DNA of 64,000 nucleotides from assembly GCA_002049795.1 (NCBI GenBank), contig MUKC01000001.1, positions 1 through 64,000 of the forward strand, in the 5' to 3' direction. This document shows positions 715 through 63,773 of the stretch, piece after piece. Under the pieces are notes generated by a model. It made no database searches and was not told the DNA's origin. It saw nothing but the letters and a program-made list of their open reading frames with translations. The translations under genes and the position numbers were made by a program. The first letter of the stretch is position 1; each line of letters starts with the position of its first letter. The stretch comes from Desulfobacca sp. 4484_104 (GTDB taxonomy: Bacteria; Desulfobacterota; Desulfobaccia; Desulfobaccales; Desulfobaccaceae).

Positions 715-1407
715 TTAGGCTCCGGGTCGGGCTCCAAAGATGGCGGTGCCGATCCGCACCAGGGTGGCGCCTTCCTCGATGGCCGCCTCGAAGTCGCCGG
801 ACATCCCCATTGACAGCTCACTCAGTTGGATTTCCGGGAAAGAACGGCTCAGACGGTCTTTCAACTCTCGCAATTGTTTAAAATAAGGCCGGACAGCTTC
901 GGGTTCATTAAACCAGGGGGGCATGGTCATTAGCCCCCGGAGCCGCAGATGTGGCAGGGCGGCGATGGCCTCAATAAGGGCCGCGGCGTCTTCGGGGGCT
1001 ACCCCTGACTTGCTGGCCTCCCCGGCCAGATTGACCTCAATCAAGATCTCCTGGATCTTTCCCAATTTCTGTGCGGCTTTTTCTAAGGCTTGGGCCAGCT
1101 TCAGGCGATCAACGGAGTGGATCAGATCAAAACCGGCTACGGCCCCGGCGGCCTTGTTGGTCTGCAGGTTGCCGATAAAATGCCAGCTTACCACCTGACC
1201 CAAGGCGGCGATCTTGGTTTGGGCCTCCTGGAGATAATTTTCCCCCAAGATCTTTACCCCGGCGGCAATAGCCCGGCGCATGCGCTCCAGGTCGACGGTC
1301 TTGCTGACCGCCACCAGCTTAACCTCGTCGGGCTGCCGACCCACCCGCTGGGCCGCCGCAGCAATTTGGTCTAGTATGTAGCGCAAATTATCGGCAATGG
1401 GATTCAT
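715..1407 (-). CDS. yggS: YggS/PLPBP family pyridoxal phosphate homeostasis protein
   Basis: This 230-residue protein has the usual length of the single-domain alanine-racemase-fold PLP-binding family. Lys36, in the segment VAVSKTV, is the expected Schiff-base lysine. [21 protein letters not shown], the SKSGV region and the late [10 protein letters not shown] block are all typical. Family members buffer and deliver PLP and affect amino-acid pools; no catalytic activity is established. Its ATG overlaps the tatD stop as ATGA, so the two genes are translationally coupled. Confidence 0.93.
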
Positions 1408-2192
1408 GGCGCGGCCTCCAGACCAAATACCCGGCGGGTATTATTCCAGGTATGTTGGGCCACGGTAGCCAGATCTACCCCTTTCAGGTCAGCTAAAGTT
1501 TGGGCGGTATAGAGCAGATAGGCGGGTTCATTCCTTTTGCCCCGGCGAGGCTGGGGGGCCAGATAAGGGGCATCGGTTTCAATCAACAAACCTTCCAGGG
1601 GCAATTTCTTTACTACCTCCCTTAAGGGGTCGGCATTAGGATAAGTCAAAACCCCGGATAGCGACAACACCAGACCCAGATCAAGAAAGGCCCGGGCCTC
1701 GGCATAGGAACCGCCAAAACAATGCATCACGCCGCCCGGCAGGCCGGGGGCATACTTCCGCAGGATGGCCAGCGTGTCGGCAGTGGCCTCCCGGTTATGA
1801 ATGACGACCGGTTTATTGAGCGATTGAGCCAGCCCTAGCTGACGCTGGAACCAATGCTTCTGCACCTCTGCCGGAGCGCGCTGACGGTAGTAATCCAGGC
1901 CGATTTCACCGATCGCCACTACCCGCGGTGAGGTTGCCCACCGACTAAGCTCGGCAATGCCGGTCTCCTGGAGCTGGCCCACGCCATGCGGATGGATCCC
2001 GACGGTGCCATAGATCTGATCATATTTTTGGGCGGTGTTCAGAACTTCAGCGGCATTGGCGAGGCTGATGCCGATATTGATAATTAATTCCACCCCCGCT
2101 TCCCAGGCCCGTTGAATCACCTGGGACTGATCGGTCTGGAACTCGGGCATATCAAGGTGCGCGTGCGAATCAGCGAAACGAATGTCAGACAT
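1404..2192 (-). CDS. tatD: TatD family metal-dependent deoxyribonuclease
   Basis: This 262-residue TIM-barrel hydrolase has the metal-binding HAH near residue 10 (DSHAHLD). The later family blocks are also present: GEIGLDYY, the KPVVIHNRE histidine, MHCFGGSYAEA and ETDAPYLAP. TatD proteins are cytoplasmic 3'-5' exonucleases implicated in DNA and RNA turnover. The gene leads a two-gene operon with yggS, a common bacterial arrangement. It starts at ATG 2192. It is 56 kb from the Qat-like pair and in a housekeeping context, so I do not read it as the QatD component. Confidence 0.93.
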   Translation of the reverse strand: MSDIRFADSHAHLDMPEFQTDQSQVIQRAWEAGVELIINIGISLANAAEVLNTAQKYDQIYGTVGIHPHGVGQLQETGIAELSRWATSPRVVAIGEIGLDYYRQRAPAEVQKHWFQRQLGLAQSLNKPVVIHNREATADTLAILRKYAPGLPGGVMHCFGGSYAEARAFLDLGLVLSLSGVLTYPNADPLREVVKKLPLEGLLIETDAPYLAPQPRRGKRNEPAYLLYTAQTLADLKGVDLATVAQHTWNNTRRVFGLEAAP

Positions 2193-36264: not shown

Positions 36265-36636
36265 TCAAGGCAGGTAATAAGCGGCGCTCGAGGTATCCGA
36301 TTCCCAGACCGCCACCCGGGTGACCTTGACCCGGTCATCATTGATCGCCGGGCTGAGACGTTCGAAGAGATAACGGGCCAGATTTTCGGAGGACGGATTC
36401 TGATTTTGGAAGGCCGGCAGCTCATTGAGATAGGTATGATCGACCTCCTCTAAAACCTCCCGGGCCGCGGCCTTGATCTTCCCAAAATCCCGTACCAACC
36501 CAACCTCATCCAGAGAAGCCGCACCCAGAAAAATTTCTACCTTCCAGTTATGCCCGTGCAAGGCTTCACATTTGCCATAGAAGTTTTCCAGCCGATGGGC
36601 CGCGGAAAACTGGGTAATAATCTTTAATTCATACAT
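36265..36636 (-). CDS. queD: 6-carboxytetrahydropterin synthase
   Basis: 123 residues. The zinc histidines are FSAAHRL and LHGHNW, with the catalytic cysteine in GKCEALHGH. The later VDHTYLN and NPSSENLARYLF motifs also match. QueD converts dihydroneopterin triphosphate to 6-carboxytetrahydropterin, the second step to preQ0 and queuosine. QueE and a standard QueC are not in the window, but the QatC-like protein at 58348 belongs to the QueC fold and would depend on this pathway. Confidence 0.93.
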   Translation of the reverse strand: MYELKIITQFSAAHRLENFYGKCEALHGHNWKVEIFLGAASLDEVGLVRDFGKIKAAAREVLEEVDHTYLNELPAFQNQNPSSENLARYLFERLSPAINDDRVKVTRVAVWESDTSSAAYYLP

Positions 36637-56169: not shown

Positions 56170-57516
56170 GTGAACCACCCACCCACCATTCTGCTGATCA
56201 ACCCTTGGATCTACGATTTTGCCGCTCACGACTTTTTTGCCCGGCCGCTGGGATTATTATACCTGGCGGCTAGGCTGTTGGCGCAAGGCTATGCGTTAAG
56301 ATTTATTGATTGTTTGGAACGACCCGTAGACCGGAATATCGCCAAAAACCTGCCGTCTGGTGAGCATTCAGTCACCGGGCGTTACCATAAAGAACCATTG
56401 CCGACGCCCCGTCCTCTGCGGGGCCTCCCTCGCCGCTATGGCCGTTATGGGATCAGCGAGGCAGCATTTCGAGACAAGCTCCGTGGCACTCCTTGGCCCG
56501 CGGCGGTGCTGGTGACTTCTTTGATGACTTACTGGTATCCTGGCGTACAGGCGGTCATCAGGCGGCTCCGGGAGCATTTCCCCGGCGTGCCGGTGGTGCT
56601 GGGGGGCATCTACGCCACTTTATGCCCGGAACATGCCCGGCGTTACAGCGGCGCTGACCTGGTGCAAACCGGCCCTGGAGAACCGCAGATTCTGCCCCTG
56701 CTCGCGGAACTGACTGGCTGGGATCGCCCTGTGCCGCCGGTCCTGGAGGATCTGGATGCCCTACCCTACCCGGCTCTGCACCTGCTTGCCGAACGCGGTC
56801 TGATCCCCTTACTCACCTCCCGTGGCTGTCCCCTAAACTGTGCCTATTGCGCCTCCAAACTGCTGCAACCCAAATTTCAGCAACGCCGCCCGGCCGCGGT
56901 GGTCGAGGAGCTGACCTATTGGCAGGCCCGTTTGGGATCAAAGGAAGTCGCCTTTTATGACGATGCCTTGTTAATCAATGCCGAATCGCACTTATTGGCC
57001 ATCCTCGAAGGGGTATTGAGCCGGGGATTAGATTTAAGGTTTCATACCCCGAACGGCCTGCACCTGAAGCTGATCAGCCCATTGGTGGCCAAGTGGCTGA
57101 AAAAGGCCAATTTTAGCACCCTGCGCCTGGGTTTGGAAACTACTGCCCTGGGGCCCAAACGCCTGGATAGCAAGGTCCAGGCCGGTGATTTGGAACAGGC
57201 CCTGGCCGCGCTGCAGGAAGCGGGTTTTGGGGCCGACGAAATCGGGGTGTATCTGCTTATCGGTCTGCCCCACCAGGAGGATACGGCGATCGTCGATGCC
57301 ATCCGGCAGGTGCGGAGCTTGGGTGCTACCCCGGTCCTGGCCCAATATTCGCCGATTCCGCATACTGCTTTGTGGTCGGAGGCCCTAAGAGTTTCGCGCT
57401 ATGATCTGGAGTCGGAGCCGCTGTTTCATAACAATTCGATCTTCCCGTGCTGGCCGGAATTTTCCTGGCCGCGCTACAGCCGCCTTAAAACCTTGGCCGC
57501 GGGAGGACGGGTATGA
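56170..57516 (+). CDS. B12-binding-domain-type radical SAM protein (COG1032)
   Basis: 448 residues from GTG 56170. The N-terminal half resembles a cobalamin-binding domain: ILLINPWIYDFAA, RPLGLLYLAARLLAQGY, PVVLGGIYATLCPEHA. The classic DxHxxG cobalamin motif is not evident. The radical SAM core has TSRGCPLNCAYCASK, EVAFYDDALLI, the LRLGLETT segment and VYLLIGLPHQ. Members perform methylations and ring rearrangements. An insertion near residues 60-95 is basic. It sits between DUF4405 and the Qat-like pair, but its link to either is unclear. Confidence 0.82.
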   Translation: MNHPPTILLINPWIYDFAAHDFFARPLGLLYLAARLLAQGYALRFIDCLERPVDRNIAKNLPSGEHSVTGRYHKEPLPTPRPLRGLPRRYGRYGISEAAFRDKLRGTPWPAAVLVTSLMTYWYPGVQAVIRRLREHFPGVPVVLGGIYATLCPEHARRYSGADLVQTGPGEPQILPLLAELTGWDRPVPPVLEDLDALPYPALHLLAERGLIPLLTSRGCPLNCAYCASKLLQPKFQQRRPAAVVEELTYWQARLGSKEVAFYDDALLINAESHLLAILEGVLSRGLDLRFHTPNGLHLKLISPLVAKWLKKANFSTLRLGLETTALGPKRLDSKVQAGDLEQALAALQEAGFGADEIGVYLLIGLPHQEDTAIVDAIRQVRSLGATPVLAQYSPIPHTALWSEALRVSRYDLESEPLFHNNSIFPCWPEFSWPRYSRLKTLAAGGRV

Positions 57517-57524
57517 AGATCTCT

Positions 57525-57581
57525 CGCCAAGACGCAAAGACGCTAACTTACCATATCAACATTTCAACTTGCGTCTTGGCG
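57525..57581. repeat. CCAAGACGC palindromic repeat, copy 2
   Basis: CGCCAAGACGCAA (57525..57537) is perfectly inverted at TTGCGTCTTGGCG (57569..57581). The left arm also contains AGACGCAAAGACGC. The element lies between the radical SAM gene and the Qat-like pair, 33 bases before the QatB start. It matches copy 1 at 34562..34603. Confidence 0.6.
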
Positions 57582-57614
57582 TGAGATAAATCTTTAAATC
57601 ATGGGAGAAATGCG

Positions 57615-58358
57615 ATGGGCACATCCGCGGGCCGTAAGGCCCCTACCGGAAAGTTCTGGCGCCAGGCCAAGTCCACTATGGCCCGGTTCAGCTCCCCCCA
57701 CAACACCGGTCAGGTGGCGGTCACCGAGGTCGCGGCCCGTTATGTCCTGGCCTTAACCGATTGCCGTCCAGAAGCCCCGGCGGCCATTGGACATTTCTAT
57801 CATATTCAGCAAGTCGCTCAAAACCTGGCCGCCTTTTATCAACAGCTTGCCCGGCAGGGCCTGGATCAGACCCTCCAAGACCTGGGTCTGGAAAACCCGG
57901 TCGGCCGCTCACCGCACACCTGGGTCCCGGCCCTGATCGATAGATTGGCTGGCCCTGGGGCCTTATTGGAAGCCGCCATCGCCCGATCGGCGCTGATTGA
58001 CGTCCTGGCGGGCGAACTAGCGCCAAATATCGAAGATCATCATATTCGGACGGACTGCGGCGCGGGTGACGGTGCCCCAGCTGCCATTGCTGACCAGCTC
58101 AAAAATTTCTTGGCAACCGCGGTGTTCCAGAAACTGGCCACTGATTTGGGAGAGACGTTGGAGGCCCAGGCCGAGGATACCCGGACTGGGATGCAGCGCC
58201 TGCAAGAACTCCGGGATTTTATTAAAGGGCAAATATTTCTCAACCCCACCGGCACCGAGCCTTTTGACCTGGCCTGGACCGCACCGCAGAGACAGGCCTG
58301 GATTAACGGCCAACTTCTGCAACTGTTGCGTGGCCTGGCGGCGACCCATGGCGGCTAG
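57615..58358 (+). CDS. QatB-like protein
   Basis: 247 residues, cytoplasmic and mainly alpha-helical by appearance. The start is MGTSAGRKAPTGKFWRQAK; removal of Met would leave a free N-terminal glycine. GGGAG lies before the ATG. The protein overlaps a QueC-like gene by 11 bases, and QatB is the small protein next to QueC-like QatC in the known four-gene Qat anti-phage system (QatA ATPase, QatB, QatC, QatD nuclease). Identification rests on this context, length and the MGTS start. It may be the substrate of its partner. No QatA is found upstream: a repeat and a radical SAM gene lie there. Confidence 0.5.
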   Translation: MGTSAGRKAPTGKFWRQAKSTMARFSSPHNTGQVAVTEVAARYVLALTDCRPEAPAAIGHFYHIQQVAQNLAAFYQQLARQGLDQTLQDLGLENPVGRSPHTWVPALIDRLAGPGALLEAAIARSALIDVLAGELAPNIEDHHIRTDCGAGDGAPAAIADQLKNFLATAVFQKLATDLGETLEAQAEDTRTGMQRLQELRDFIKGQIFLNPTGTEPFDLAWTAPQRQAWINGQLLQLLRGLAATHGG

Positions 58359-59655
58359 AATCTTCGTCCGGGGGCATCCCCAGGAAACCCCTCACACTCC
58401 AGAAAAATATGCGGCTGATATCAGCCTGTGGCCCCCAACTTCCGGCTTCACGGTGCACCATAACCTGCAGCAGCTGTGGGCCAATCCCCGGCTTCCCAGC
58501 TCGGAATATCAATCTTTGCTGCTCTTGGCGATCGGCGTCTGGGCTACAGACAAGCTGGTGTTCAGGTCCACTGCCGCGGACGCCTGGACCCGGGAGCTGG
58601 TTTTGGAAGTCCCGGCAAGTCCGGCCTGGATGGCACTGGTGGCCGGCCTGACGCCGATCTTGGAGTTCCTCACCGGAGACCGCTGGCAATTGGTGCCCCG
58701 ACCACTACAATATGATTTAAGTTTTCAAGCGGAATGGCGATTAGACTGGCAACCGGATCTGGTCTGCCTGTTTTCCGGCGGGATTGATTCCCTGGTCGGG
58801 GCTATCGATTTCCTGGAGGCCGGGTATCGGCTAATATTGGTCAGTCATTATGATTATGGACAACTGGCCGGATATCAAAAACATTTGGCCGCGGCCCTGA
58901 CCCAGCATTATGGGGCGGAACGCGTCCACCACCTGGGCCTACGGGTACAACTGGAGGCCCCGGAATTGAGCCTGAGGAGCCGCTCCCTGCTGTTCATCGC
59001 CCTGGGGTTGACGGTGGCCGGGGCTTTTAAGCCAAGGCTGCCGCTGCTGGTCCCGGAGAACGGTTTTATCAGTCTCAACCCGCCGCTGACCCTGAACCGC
59101 CTGGGCAGTTACAGTACTCGCACCACCCATCCTTATGTCTTGCAGAATTTGCAAGACTTCTGTCGTCAGGTAAAGATTTTCCATCCCCTGGTCAACCCTT
59201 ACCAGGGGCAGACCAAAGGCGAAATGTTGGCTTCCAGTCGAGGCCAGGAACTGTTGCGCGCCTTGCTGCCTCAGACCTTGTCCTGCTCTCACCCGGTAGT
59301 CGCCCGCTGGCACCGCCAAACTCAGGGCAATTGCGGCTATTGTTTTCCCTGTCTGTTGCGCCGGGCCGCGCTGCATCGGATCGGTGCGGATCAGGGCCAG
59401 GATTATCTTTATGATGTCCTCACCGATGACCGGTTGTTAACCAATCGGGCCCGGGGAGCCGACCTGCGCAGTCTGCTTTTCGCCCTTAAAACGTGGGAAG
59501 ACATCGGCCCGACCCCGTCCTTACTGTGGCGCACCGGCCCGCTGCCGGGAGAATTTGACTTAAAATTGCGGGTGTTGGCAGCCGGGATGGCCGAGATTAA
59601 ATCCTGGCTGCAGTCTCAAGCCCGGCCGGGCTTGCGGAGATATCTGGGTTGGTAG
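58348..59655 (+). CDS. QatC-like QueC-family protein
   Basis: 435 residues from ATG 58348. The PP-loop ATPase motif LFSGGIDSLVGA is at about 142-153, preceded by a 130-residue N-terminal region absent from ordinary QueC (about 220-235 residues). A zinc site of four cysteines is near 343-364 (LSCSHP, then NCGYCFPC). PENGFISLNPPL and SYSTRTTHP are conserved in QatC-type proteins. Ordinary QueC makes preQ0 from carboxydeazaguanine. QueC-like enzymes in defence operons such as type IV CBASS attach a deazaguanine to a protein N terminus. A similar role here is inference. Confidence 0.65.
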   Translation: MAARIFVRGHPQETPHTPEKYAADISLWPPTSGFTVHHNLQQLWANPRLPSSEYQSLLLLAIGVWATDKLVFRSTAADAWTRELVLEVPASPAWMALVAGLTPILEFLTGDRWQLVPRPLQYDLSFQAEWRLDWQPDLVCLFSGGIDSLVGAIDFLEAGYRLILVSHYDYGQLAGYQKHLAAALTQHYGAERVHHLGLRVQLEAPELSLRSRSLLFIALGLTVAGAFKPRLPLLVPENGFISLNPPLTLNRLGSYSTRTTHPYVLQNLQDFCRQVKIFHPLVNPYQGQTKGEMLASSRGQELLRALLPQTLSCSHPVVARWHRQTQGNCGYCFPCLLRRAALHRIGADQGQDYLYDVLTDDRLLTNRARGADLRSLLFALKTWEDIGPTPSLLWRTGPLPGEFDLKLRVLAAGMAEIKSWLQSQARPGLRRYLGW

Positions 59656-59759: not shown

Positions 59760-60257
59760 TCATGCTTCTAGCGCAATAGCTAAAGCGGTGGTGAGCTTGA
59801 CCACCTCATTGCCGGTCTGGCGCAGTCGCTGGGATAACATTTGTGACAAGCGCCAAAGAATCTTAATTCCCATCTTGGGATTCTGGTGGACCAGCTCATA
59901 GAAGCAATCCTTGCCAAGTTCTAACAATCGGCAGTCAGTCAGGGCGGTAACCGTGGCCGAGCGCACGTCATTGTCAATCAGGGCCATTTCGCCAAAGATT
60001 ACGCCGTCGTCGGCCTTGAGCCGGATCATTACCTTGTCCCGGGGCACACCATCGTCGAATTGCAGGACCAGGCGTTTGGTGATTTCCACTTCTCCTTCAC
60101 ACATGATATACATCACCTCTCCCGGCTCCCCTTCGGTCATAACGATGTTTTGCGCCGGGACCGAGTGCGGGCGGGTGGCGGCCAATACCTGCTCTAGCTC
60201 GTTGTCCGACAAATCTTGCAAGATAAAAATCTTCTTTAATAGCCTCAGATCTATCAT
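59760..60257 (-). CDS. Cyclic nucleotide-binding domain protein
   Basis: 165 residues from ATG 60257. A frame to 60317 exists but overlaps the channel gene. The CNB beta-roll is clear: IFILQDLSDNELEQVLA, VMTEGEPGEVMYIMCEGEVEI, and FGEMALIDNDVRSATVTA, which includes the phosphate-binding-cassette region; the cassette arginine is in NDVRSATV. No effector is fused. It starts four bases after the potassium channel gene, so the pair is probably one operon and may form a ligand-gated unit. The ligand is unknown. Confidence 0.85.
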   Translation of the reverse strand: MIDLRLLKKIFILQDLSDNELEQVLAATRPHSVPAQNIVMTEGEPGEVMYIMCEGEVEITKRLVLQFDDGVPRDKVMIRLKADDGVIFGEMALIDNDVRSATVTALTDCRLLELGKDCFYELVHQNPKMGIKILWRLSQMLSQRLRQTGNEVVKLTTALAIALEA

Positions 60258-60261
60258 CGTT

Positions 60262-61548
60262 TTAGAGTTGTTCAAAGCTCCCGGTGCCTTTGGACAACCA
60301 CGGTTGTTCGTTGGCAATCACCACCGCCACTTCATTAGGGGCAATTAAGTGGTCGGCTGCTGGATTAATGACACACTCGGTGCGGCGGCGGCCAAAGAGA
60401 TGGGTCATGCCAGCCTCGGCGAACTTCCGGCGGATGAACTCATCAATAGCCGAGGCTTCCCCTGACAACAGATCTTCCAGCCGTAGCATCTGACCTTCAT
60501 TAAAGAGGCCAATCAGCAAGGCCTGGTAACGACTTCGCAAATAGTCGCTAAACTCCTGGACCGACAAGCCATGAAACCGGGCCGGGATTTCGACTACCCA
60601 GAAATTGGGTTTGTCGGCGGACAGCAAACTCTCCAGCACTTTAAACAGCCCCGCAGAAGTCGTGGCGCTGGCGATCAAGGCGCTGTCATATTCCCCCCGG
60701 GTGATGATATTCTCCACATGAGCCCGTTCCAGGTGCAGGCGATTTTCGGGATACAGCAACTCGGCCGAGATGTTGATTTTGGGATTGACCGCCTTAACCG
60801 CCAGGGCCGCCAGCAGCGTATGTTGATCGATCTGCTCTCGGGGCCGTTCCTGCATCCGGTCCGCCAAAATCAGGACTTTGTGGGCCCGCCTGAGATTAGC
60901 CTTGACTAACAGATCCTCCCGGGCAAAATCGCCCCGTAAAAAAAATAGATCATGATCGCGAAATTTAATCTTGATGTCCTCAAATTCCTCCGGTGACATT
61001 TCACTGATCAACACTACCGGGTTCCGCTGTTCCAGACGATTGAGCAGGTCCCTGAGGATACGTTCGCCGCCCCGATGCCAGCCCATGATAATGATATGGT
61101 TGTTAACCCTGATATCTTCCAATCCTCGTTCCCTCCGGAACTTACGTTCAATAAATACTGAGGCCACAGTGGCAGTCAGCAGAGAGAGAATAACCAGACC
61201 CGACAGCATCAGGCCAACTCCAATGAGGCGTCCGATTACCGATTTGGGGACCAGATCCCCATAACCAACCGTAGTCAGGGTCACCACAGCCCACCAGAGG
61301 CCATTCCCCAGATCGACCCAGAAGCTGGGGGCCTCAAATTCCTGGAAAGCAAACCCTAAAGCTCCCAGGAACACCAAGCTGGCTATGGTCCCGATCAGCC
61401 AGAAGACCCTTTCCTTCCGCAAGGTGGCAAAAAGGGCACTTAAATTGTTGACCAGATTCAGCCCAGCCTTTTTTAAAAAATCCTGGTTTGCTCGCAGACT
61501 TAGCAATAGATGAACTTTTTTATGGACTAACAGGGTAAATTTTCTCAT
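60262..61548 (-). CDS. Two-helix potassium channel with RCK (TrkA-N) domain
   Basis: 428 residues. Two membrane helices (about 48-68 and 110-133) flank a pore loop with the selectivity filter TLTTVGYGDLVP. The cytoplasmic part has an RCK_N-like domain (NNHIIIMGWHRGGERIL, FFLRGDFAREDLL, KVLILAD), though the nucleotide loop is degenerate (GWHRGG). It ends in a further regulatory region. It likely carries K+ and is gated by a cytoplasmic ligand. The cyclic nucleotide-binding gene follows immediately; the sugar kinase gene is 64 bases upstream. Confidence 0.9.
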   Translation of the reverse strand: MRKFTLLVHKKVHLLLSLRANQDFLKKAGLNLVNNLSALFATLRKERVFWLIGTIASLVFLGALGFAFQEFEAPSFWVDLGNGLWWAVVTLTTVGYGDLVPKSVIGRLIGVGLMLSGLVILSLLTATVASVFIERKFRRERGLEDIRVNNHIIIMGWHRGGERILRDLLNRLEQRNPVVLISEMSPEEFEDIKIKFRDHDLFFLRGDFAREDLLVKANLRRAHKVLILADRMQERPREQIDQHTLLAALAVKAVNPKINISAELLYPENRLHLERAHVENIITRGEYDSALIASATTSAGLFKVLESLLSADKPNFWVVEIPARFHGLSVQEFSDYLRSRYQALLIGLFNEGQMLRLEDLLSGEASAIDEFIRRKFAEAGMTHLFGRRRTECVINPAADHLIAPNEVAVVIANEQPWLSKGTGSFEQL

Positions 61549-63182: not shown

Positions 63183-63773
63183 GTGTTTCCTGATACCCAT
63201 CTATTCGACGAGATTTGCGCCAGAAAACAGGGTGTTAGACGCGAAGTATTGGAACATGTTATCACCCTGGCCGTGGAATTGGCCCGCGAAGGCCGAGAAG
63301 GTAGAAAAATCGGCACTTTATTTATCGTCTATGATTCCGACGCGGTGCTGGCCCAATCCAGATGTCTGATATTGGATCCCTTATTGGGACATCCGGACGA
63401 GGTAAAACGGATTGACAATCCTAATATGCGTGAGACCATCAAGGAGTTGGCGCAATTAGACGGGGCGTTTGTGGTTTCTGGGGACGGCGTCGTGGTCTCG
63501 GCCTGCCGGTATCTCAATTCTTCAGCAGTTGGCATTGATTTGCCGCTAGGGTTAGGGTCTCGCCACATGGCCGCCGCCTCCATCACTAAAGAAACTGAAG
63601 CCATTGCGGTGGTCGTATCCGAAAGTTCAGTAGTGCGGGTATTTGTCGGTGGCAAATTGGTCTCGGAAATCATTCCGGAATTATGGGTGCTGAGCCGCGC
63701 CAGCCTGCACCTGAGCTGGCCCTATGTGGAGCGGACCACCAATCATGTTACGGTGGTCAGCAAAGAAGATTGA
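63183..63773 (+). CDS. Diadenylate cyclase (DAC/DisA_N domain protein)
   Basis: 196 residues from GTG 63183. The DAC motifs are visible: the DGA of LAQLDGAFVVSGDGVVV (about residue 93) and the RHR-type motif as GLGSRHMAAASITKETEAIAVVVSES. The DAC region (about 45-185) occupies most of the protein, without the DNA-binding domains of DisA or the helices of DacA. It most resembles soluble DacZ-like proteins. It makes c-di-AMP from two ATP; c-di-AMP commonly controls potassium uptake. Whether RHM retains activity cannot be settled here. Confidence 0.82.
   Translation: MFPDTHLFDEICARKQGVRREVLEHVITLAVELAREGREGRKIGTLFIVYDSDAVLAQSRCLILDPLLGHPDEVKRIDNPNMRETIKELAQLDGAFVVSGDGVVVSACRYLNSSAVGIDLPLGLGSRHMAAASITKETEAIAVVVSESSVVRVFVGGKLVSEIIPELWVLSRASLHLSWPYVERTTNHVTVVSKED

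Follow-up and report, generated by a model that had tools for sequence, protein, structure and literature searches.

The window, a 64,000-nt stretch of the Desulfobacca sp. 4484_104 genome (class Desulfobaccia), carries two overlapping genes resembling the QatB and QatC components of the qatABCD anti-phage system. Reading of the open reading frames places the QatB-like gene at 57615-58358 (+), encoding a 247-aa protein that begins MGTSAGRKAP, and the QatC gene at 58348-59655 (+), encoding a QueC-family enzyme of 435 aa and overlapping its partner by 11 nt. The ATG at 58348 was taken as the QatC start, in place of the longer mechanical ORF from 58066, because the sister species (L037) keeps the same start. 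The MGTS motif, whose Gly2 is the predicted acceptor of a modification, is encoded at 57615-57626 (+), the SGGIDS ATP pyrophosphate loop (S143-S148) at 58774-58791 (+), T257-R258-T259 at 59116-59124 (+), and the zinc cysteines C313, C329, C332 and C335 within 59284-59352 (+). These positions agree with the initial annotation, which had described an MGTS-starting protein overlapping an enlarged QueC-like enzyme with SGGIDS and four cysteines. The conserved upstream neighbor, at 56170-57516 (+), encodes a 448-aa B12-binding radical-SAM protein (PF04055 and PF02310). Between it and qatB lies an imperfect inverted repeat (57519-57587) with 19-bp arms at 57519-57537 and 57569-57587 and 1 mismatch. 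Its 19-nt core, CGCCAAGACGCAAAGACGC, was found in none of the relatives fetched, which argues for an intergenic element belonging to this genome; because the gene order around it is conserved, the earlier suggestion that it marks a rearrangement was abandoned.

The family assignment of the pair was examined by profile, sequence and structure comparisons. QatC scored 340 bits against NCBIfam NF041925 (cut-off 280), E=2e-101 against the PADLOC QatC profile and 2.6e-58 against the solved QatC by phmmer. It has the N- and C-terminal extensions, SGGxDS loop, Thr pair and four-Cys zinc site that characterize the family, and its model matched QatC 9y02_B in Foldseek with E=3.5e-27 and TM 0.79/0.81, the matches to Cap9 and QueC being far weaker (Cap9 9nto_B, TM 0.70 by target). 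Against the canonical QueC profile TIGR00364, QatC reached only 20.9 bits, below the cut-off of 150.3. The QatB-like protein matched QatB profiles at 1e-12 to 1e-17 (1e-12 for PADLOC QatB) and scored 64.7 bits against NF041924, short of the cut-off of 100. However, when QatB was modeled with AlphaFold2 from 19 sequences of the class (pLDDT 82.6), P. aeruginosa QatB 9y01_A was the only significant PDB fold match of the model (probability 1.00, TM 0.60/0.68). The profile comparison proposed in the initial annotation was therefore passed by QatC at a curated cut-off and not by QatB, for which the fold match stands instead. The assignment appears to hold for both proteins, for QatB mainly through its modeled fold and its partnership with QatC.

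In published work, QatB and QatC form a complex that alone suffices against lambda-vir, and truncated Pseudomonas and E. coli operons with only QatB-QatC defend against lambda (PMC13279940). Gly2 of QatB and the ATP-site and Thr residues of QatC, including T278/T280 of the P. aeruginosa enzyme, were essential in that study, in which QatC was also found to replace the nucleobase-reading Tyr/Asp with Thr/Thr. The QatC reaction was not reconstituted there (PMC13279940), and the Qat papers considered show no modification of QatB itself. Amongst 20 QatC sequences of the class, S143, G144, G145, D147 and S148 of the ATP loop, the Thr-Arg-Thr motif, the His-Pro that follows it and the four zinc cysteines were all invariant. 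T257-R258-T259 aligned to STRTTHP of 9zee and with the essential T278/T280.

The N-terminal tip of QatB was similarly conserved. In an alignment of 19 class sequences, M1, G2, T3, S4, R7, P10, W15 and A18 were invariant; thus eight of the 17 invariant columns fell within the first 18 residues (p=2e-6), and mean pairwise identity was 63% over the first 26 residues versus 35% over residues 27-247. In the AlphaFold2 model, residues 1-6 are disordered and the first helix begins at residue 13. The tail ahead of this helix, about 12 residues, is short like those of Actinobacterial QatBs, whereas many other QatBs carry tails of 30-90 residues. One genome (G011) reads N at the position of the MGTS tip. 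In another (G020), the start of qatB (L074:7390-7450) consists of a repeat-like stretch, cagttttcagttttcagtttt, in place of MGTS, with the remainder of the gene intact; this is either an assembly error or a genuine loss of the acceptor tip. When the window was compared with its sister genome (G006), dN/dS was 0.28 for QatB and 0.18 for QatC, with 0.19 for the radical-SAM protein and 0.14 for PolA. Both QatB and QatC are under purifying selection.

QatC exceeded its cut-off in 22 of the 29 class genomes, and a match was present in 20 of the 22 good-quality genomes and in each of the 11 genera, almost without exception in one copy. A class profile search identified QatB in 23/29 genomes (20/22 of good quality; 11/11 genera). 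The two genome lists disagreed only in G002, where the contig stops 31 nt past qatB, and in G027, a 460-contig assembly. Absences were confined to four genomes of 69-84% completeness and to G016, which is without QatB, QatC and the radical-SAM protein all together. Outside the class, QatC exceeded the cut-off in just five of about 378 genomes in a phylum sample of 395. Four of these loci (L167-L170) are complete qatABCD operons, and three of the five (L167, L169 and L171) adjoin clear restriction or BREX-type genes. The fifth, L171 (7639-9555), encodes a short QatC (384 aa) and an adjacent QatD. Neither QatA nor QatB could be detected there; the neighbors include BREX-like PglZ and BrxHI genes, and the locus is a different incomplete Qat arrangement. 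Separately, far longer QatC-like proteins, some 630-700 aa in length and scoring 170-183 bits to QatC, are encoded at L173:7557-9659, L174:6668-8758 and L068:600-2495, and apparently represent another QatC-related family in the phylum.

In a midpoint-rooted tree of 48 QatC sequences, those of the class formed one clade (100/99), with the QatCs of complete operons falling outside it. Every genus sampled more than once (g1, g2, g3, g6, g9 and g10) was monophyletic, and family f2 formed one clade (100/99), although two genera of family f1 failed to join (92/80). The class clade mostly tracks taxonomy, a pattern that indicates vertical inheritance. Its placement amongst complete-operon QatCs suggests, under the midpoint root, that QatA and QatD were lost in the class ancestor. 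Taken on its phylogenetic distribution, the pair is best read as neither a product of decay nor a recent stripped-down island, but as a fixed core module of the class. A QueC-superfamily survey (PMC13329287) reports qatA and qatD beside only about one third of the members of the QatC cluster, and QatC without these partners may accordingly extend beyond the class; a class-wide fixed QatB-QatC set is not described in the passages considered.

The absence of QatA and QatD was consistent across searches. In the window's genome, the QatA profile matched nothing, and the QatD profile matched only a TatD protein at 1404-2192 (-), 55 kb away, with 86 bits against a cut-off of 230, which is most likely a housekeeping TatD. 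No class genome of the 29 had QatA over the cut-off, the only signals being four matches of about 25 bits. With HMMs built from complete operons, no qatA or qatD was detected beside any class locus, and the same HMMs found both proteins beside QatB/QatC in Actinobacterial and other loci (L008-L029) and in five plasmid loci, as well as at most Qat loci of other classes. The initial description, in which QatB and QatC stand as a pair in the absence of QatA and QatD and both the enzyme and the MGTS acceptor are intact, is therefore supported by the profiles, the fold comparisons and the HMM scans, and in the survey of relatives every class locus likewise lacked qatA and qatD. The pair falls within the QatB/QatC families, and no intact qatA or qatD accompanied by a second qatB/qatC copy was found in the genome.

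Across the class, the common block runs from the B12-binding radical-SAM gene to qatB to qatC. The radical-SAM protein was found in 24/29 genomes, and in each class stretch containing both genes its own gene lies upstream of qatB, on the qatB strand; the protein matched no NCBIfam family over the cut-off and no PDB entry by sequence. In genus g2, the gap between the radical-SAM gene and qatB is 12-22 nt and the qatB/qatC overlap about 11 nt, so the three genes look like one operon there. Flanking genes vary among genera; polA or tilS, with a sensor kinase (Pfam) and a response regulator, lies upstream, and on the downstream side a cNMP-binding protein and a K+ channel are encoded convergently, followed a few genes further by queD in family f2. 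The three-gene block usually stays. Exceptions include G026, with the radical-SAM gene and qatB together and qatC on another contig; G013, where all three genes are retained on three separate contigs; G008, where qatC has a different upstream gene and qatB sits at one end of another contig; and G028, where the radical-SAM gene is unlinked from the qatB-qatC contig. Additionally, the radical-SAM gene and qatB are separated by a 298-aa ORF at L070 (G017), and another ORF of 298 aa, LD-carboxypeptidase-like by eye, follows the radical-SAM gene at L150 (G013).

The surroundings of the class pair are housekeeping genes, whereas restriction or BREX-type genes lie next to several of the phylum's complete Qat loci. 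PADLOC matches amongst the neighbors (PolA as RTasPolA, the cNMP-binding protein, a Hanks-type kinase and a SPASM radical SAM) seem to reflect generic domains and were discounted, as was carriage by a phage, for which there were just two weak Listeria-phage matches with 48% coverage. In the window, the cNMP-binding protein and the K+ channel with RCK/TrkA-N domains, encoded at 59760-61548 (-) and converging on qatC, are kept in many class members and are possibly a cyclic-nucleotide-gated channel pair. A single-domain diadenylate-cyclase protein (DAC, PF02457; 196 aa) is encoded at 63183-63773 (+), 3.5 kb from the pair.

QueD catalyzes an early step towards 7-deazaguanines, and a queD gene (6-carboxytetrahydropterin synthase) lies outside the operon at 36274-36624 (-), with 97.5 bits to TIGR03367 (cut-off 89.25) and a PF01242 match. 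QueC, QueD and QueE-like proteins were found across the class, and therefore CDG should be available. In 25/29 genomes there is a separate canonical QueC; the QueE-like match is below the TIGR03365 cut-off, and its gene adjoins queC in most genomes. In the window's own assembly QueD was found, and canonical QueC and QueE were not. Because QueC and QueE occur in both congeners and in most of the class, this absence most likely reflects an assembly gap, and the same observation outweighs the idea that QatC stands in for a lost QueC.

Compared with known systems, the class module shares with qatABCD (PDB 9y01/9y02, 9zee, 9vlk) the family and fold of QatC with its terminal extensions, SGGxDS, Thr pair and zinc cysteines, as well as the QatB fold, the MGTS tip and the overlapping gene pair. 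It differs in that its operon lacks the QatA ATPase and the QatD nuclease, in being a vertically inherited chromosomal core locus, in its short QatB tail and in the B12 radical-SAM gene found upstream. Type IV CBASS likewise pairs a QueC-family enzyme with a partner starting Met-Gly, and Cap9, to which QatC has a fold match (9nto_B), joins CDG to Gly2 of the CD-NTase. However, PADLOC and Pfam scans of the neighboring genes found neither a CD-NTase nor Cap10, the partner here is QatB, and class QatC has Thr/Thr where Cap9 has the nucleobase-reading Tyr/Asp. With canonical QueC, the preQ0 synthase, QatC shares the PP-loop/Rossmann core and the zinc site, but it fails TIGR00364, and across the class a true QueC is encoded separately.

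Altogether, we consider it probable (roughly 60%) that the class carries an active QatB-QatC module, fixed in the core genome since the class ancestor, vertically inherited and without QatA and QatD, in which QatC modifies Gly2 of QatB. We infer the reaction, the small molecule, the role of the radical-SAM protein and the function of the module as follows. QatC would bind QatB, the initiator Met of which would be removed to expose Gly2. QatC would then use ATP to activate a carboxylate, which could be CDG, a 7-deazaguanine related to it or a different acid, and would join it to the alpha-amine of Gly2. The identity of the acid is uncertain because QatC is without the Tyr/Asp base reader; with T257/T259 in these positions the substrate may not be CDG, and "deazaguanylation", the term of the initial annotation, is a guess at the chemistry. 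The B12 radical-SAM protein is the probable third component, and would make or change the small molecule or modify QatB. On the basis of gene order, it may supply or change the conjugated molecule, although the association could be mere synteny, since in G013 the gene and qatB are not linked, and in G028 it is not on the contig that carries qatB and qatC. Modified QatB would serve a role stable enough for its retention in almost every species.

The nature of that role can be considered against the usual behavior of defence systems, which are often gained and lost. Class-wide single-copy retention, fixed synteny, the lack of QatA and QatD and the lack of clear defence neighbors disfavor a typical mobile defence, and a constitutive cell function is somewhat likelier. 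The initial suggestion of a stripped-down defence locus thus gave way to a vertically inherited core module, usually accompanied by the B12-binding radical-SAM gene. It is possible, though less likely than not, that the class has domesticated QatB-QatC into a constitutive, non-defence modification pathway with a B12-dependent radical-SAM partner. A constitutive role is placed slightly ahead, and permanent core-encoded immunity is also compatible with the data.

In such immunity, QatB-QatC alone would defend the cell against phages and would have been kept permanently by the class. The sufficiency of QatBC against lambda-vir and the conservation in the class of the catalytic residues and Gly2 needed in that assay (PMC13279940) favor this explanation, and the fast divergence of QatB outside its tip would also fit an arms race. 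However, near-universal single-copy vertical retention with fixed synteny and no defence-gene neighbors is unusual for defence systems. QatA and QatD, moreover, broaden the phage range in the published system and are nevertheless missing everywhere in the class. We therefore regard core-encoded immunity as possible but doubtful.

Alternatively, QatC could be purely metabolic, producing a free 7-deazaguanine or other small molecule with QatB as a mere scaffold. QueC-fold enzymes make small molecules, and queD lies in the wider neighborhood of many class members. This explanation is nonetheless improbable, given the separate canonical QueC in 25/29 genomes, the unstructured tip being the most conserved part of QatB, and the failure of E. 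coli QatC to complement a queC mutant, as stated in PMC13329287. A decaying remnant of a qatABCD operon, also raised in the initial annotation, would account for the missing qatA and qatD and the loss of the MGTS tip to a repeat-like insertion in G020, but it is contradicted by the class-wide distribution, the purifying selection, the intact ORFs and the active sites invariant across 11 genera, and is very improbable.

To our knowledge, a QatB-QatC modification module is known only from a mobile anti-virus system. The class Desulfobaccia would have a native minimal form of it, core-encoded without QatA and QatD and sometimes split over separate loci, with the radical-SAM gene as a candidate for the component missing from the QatC reaction that was not reconstituted in the 2026 structural work. 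If the proposed domestication is true, it would be the first case of N-terminal nucleobase-type conjugation in a housekeeping role. The fixed core pair may do a steady cell job instead of, or besides, fighting viruses, and the class allows one to study whether defence modules can be incorporated permanently into the physiology of the cell.
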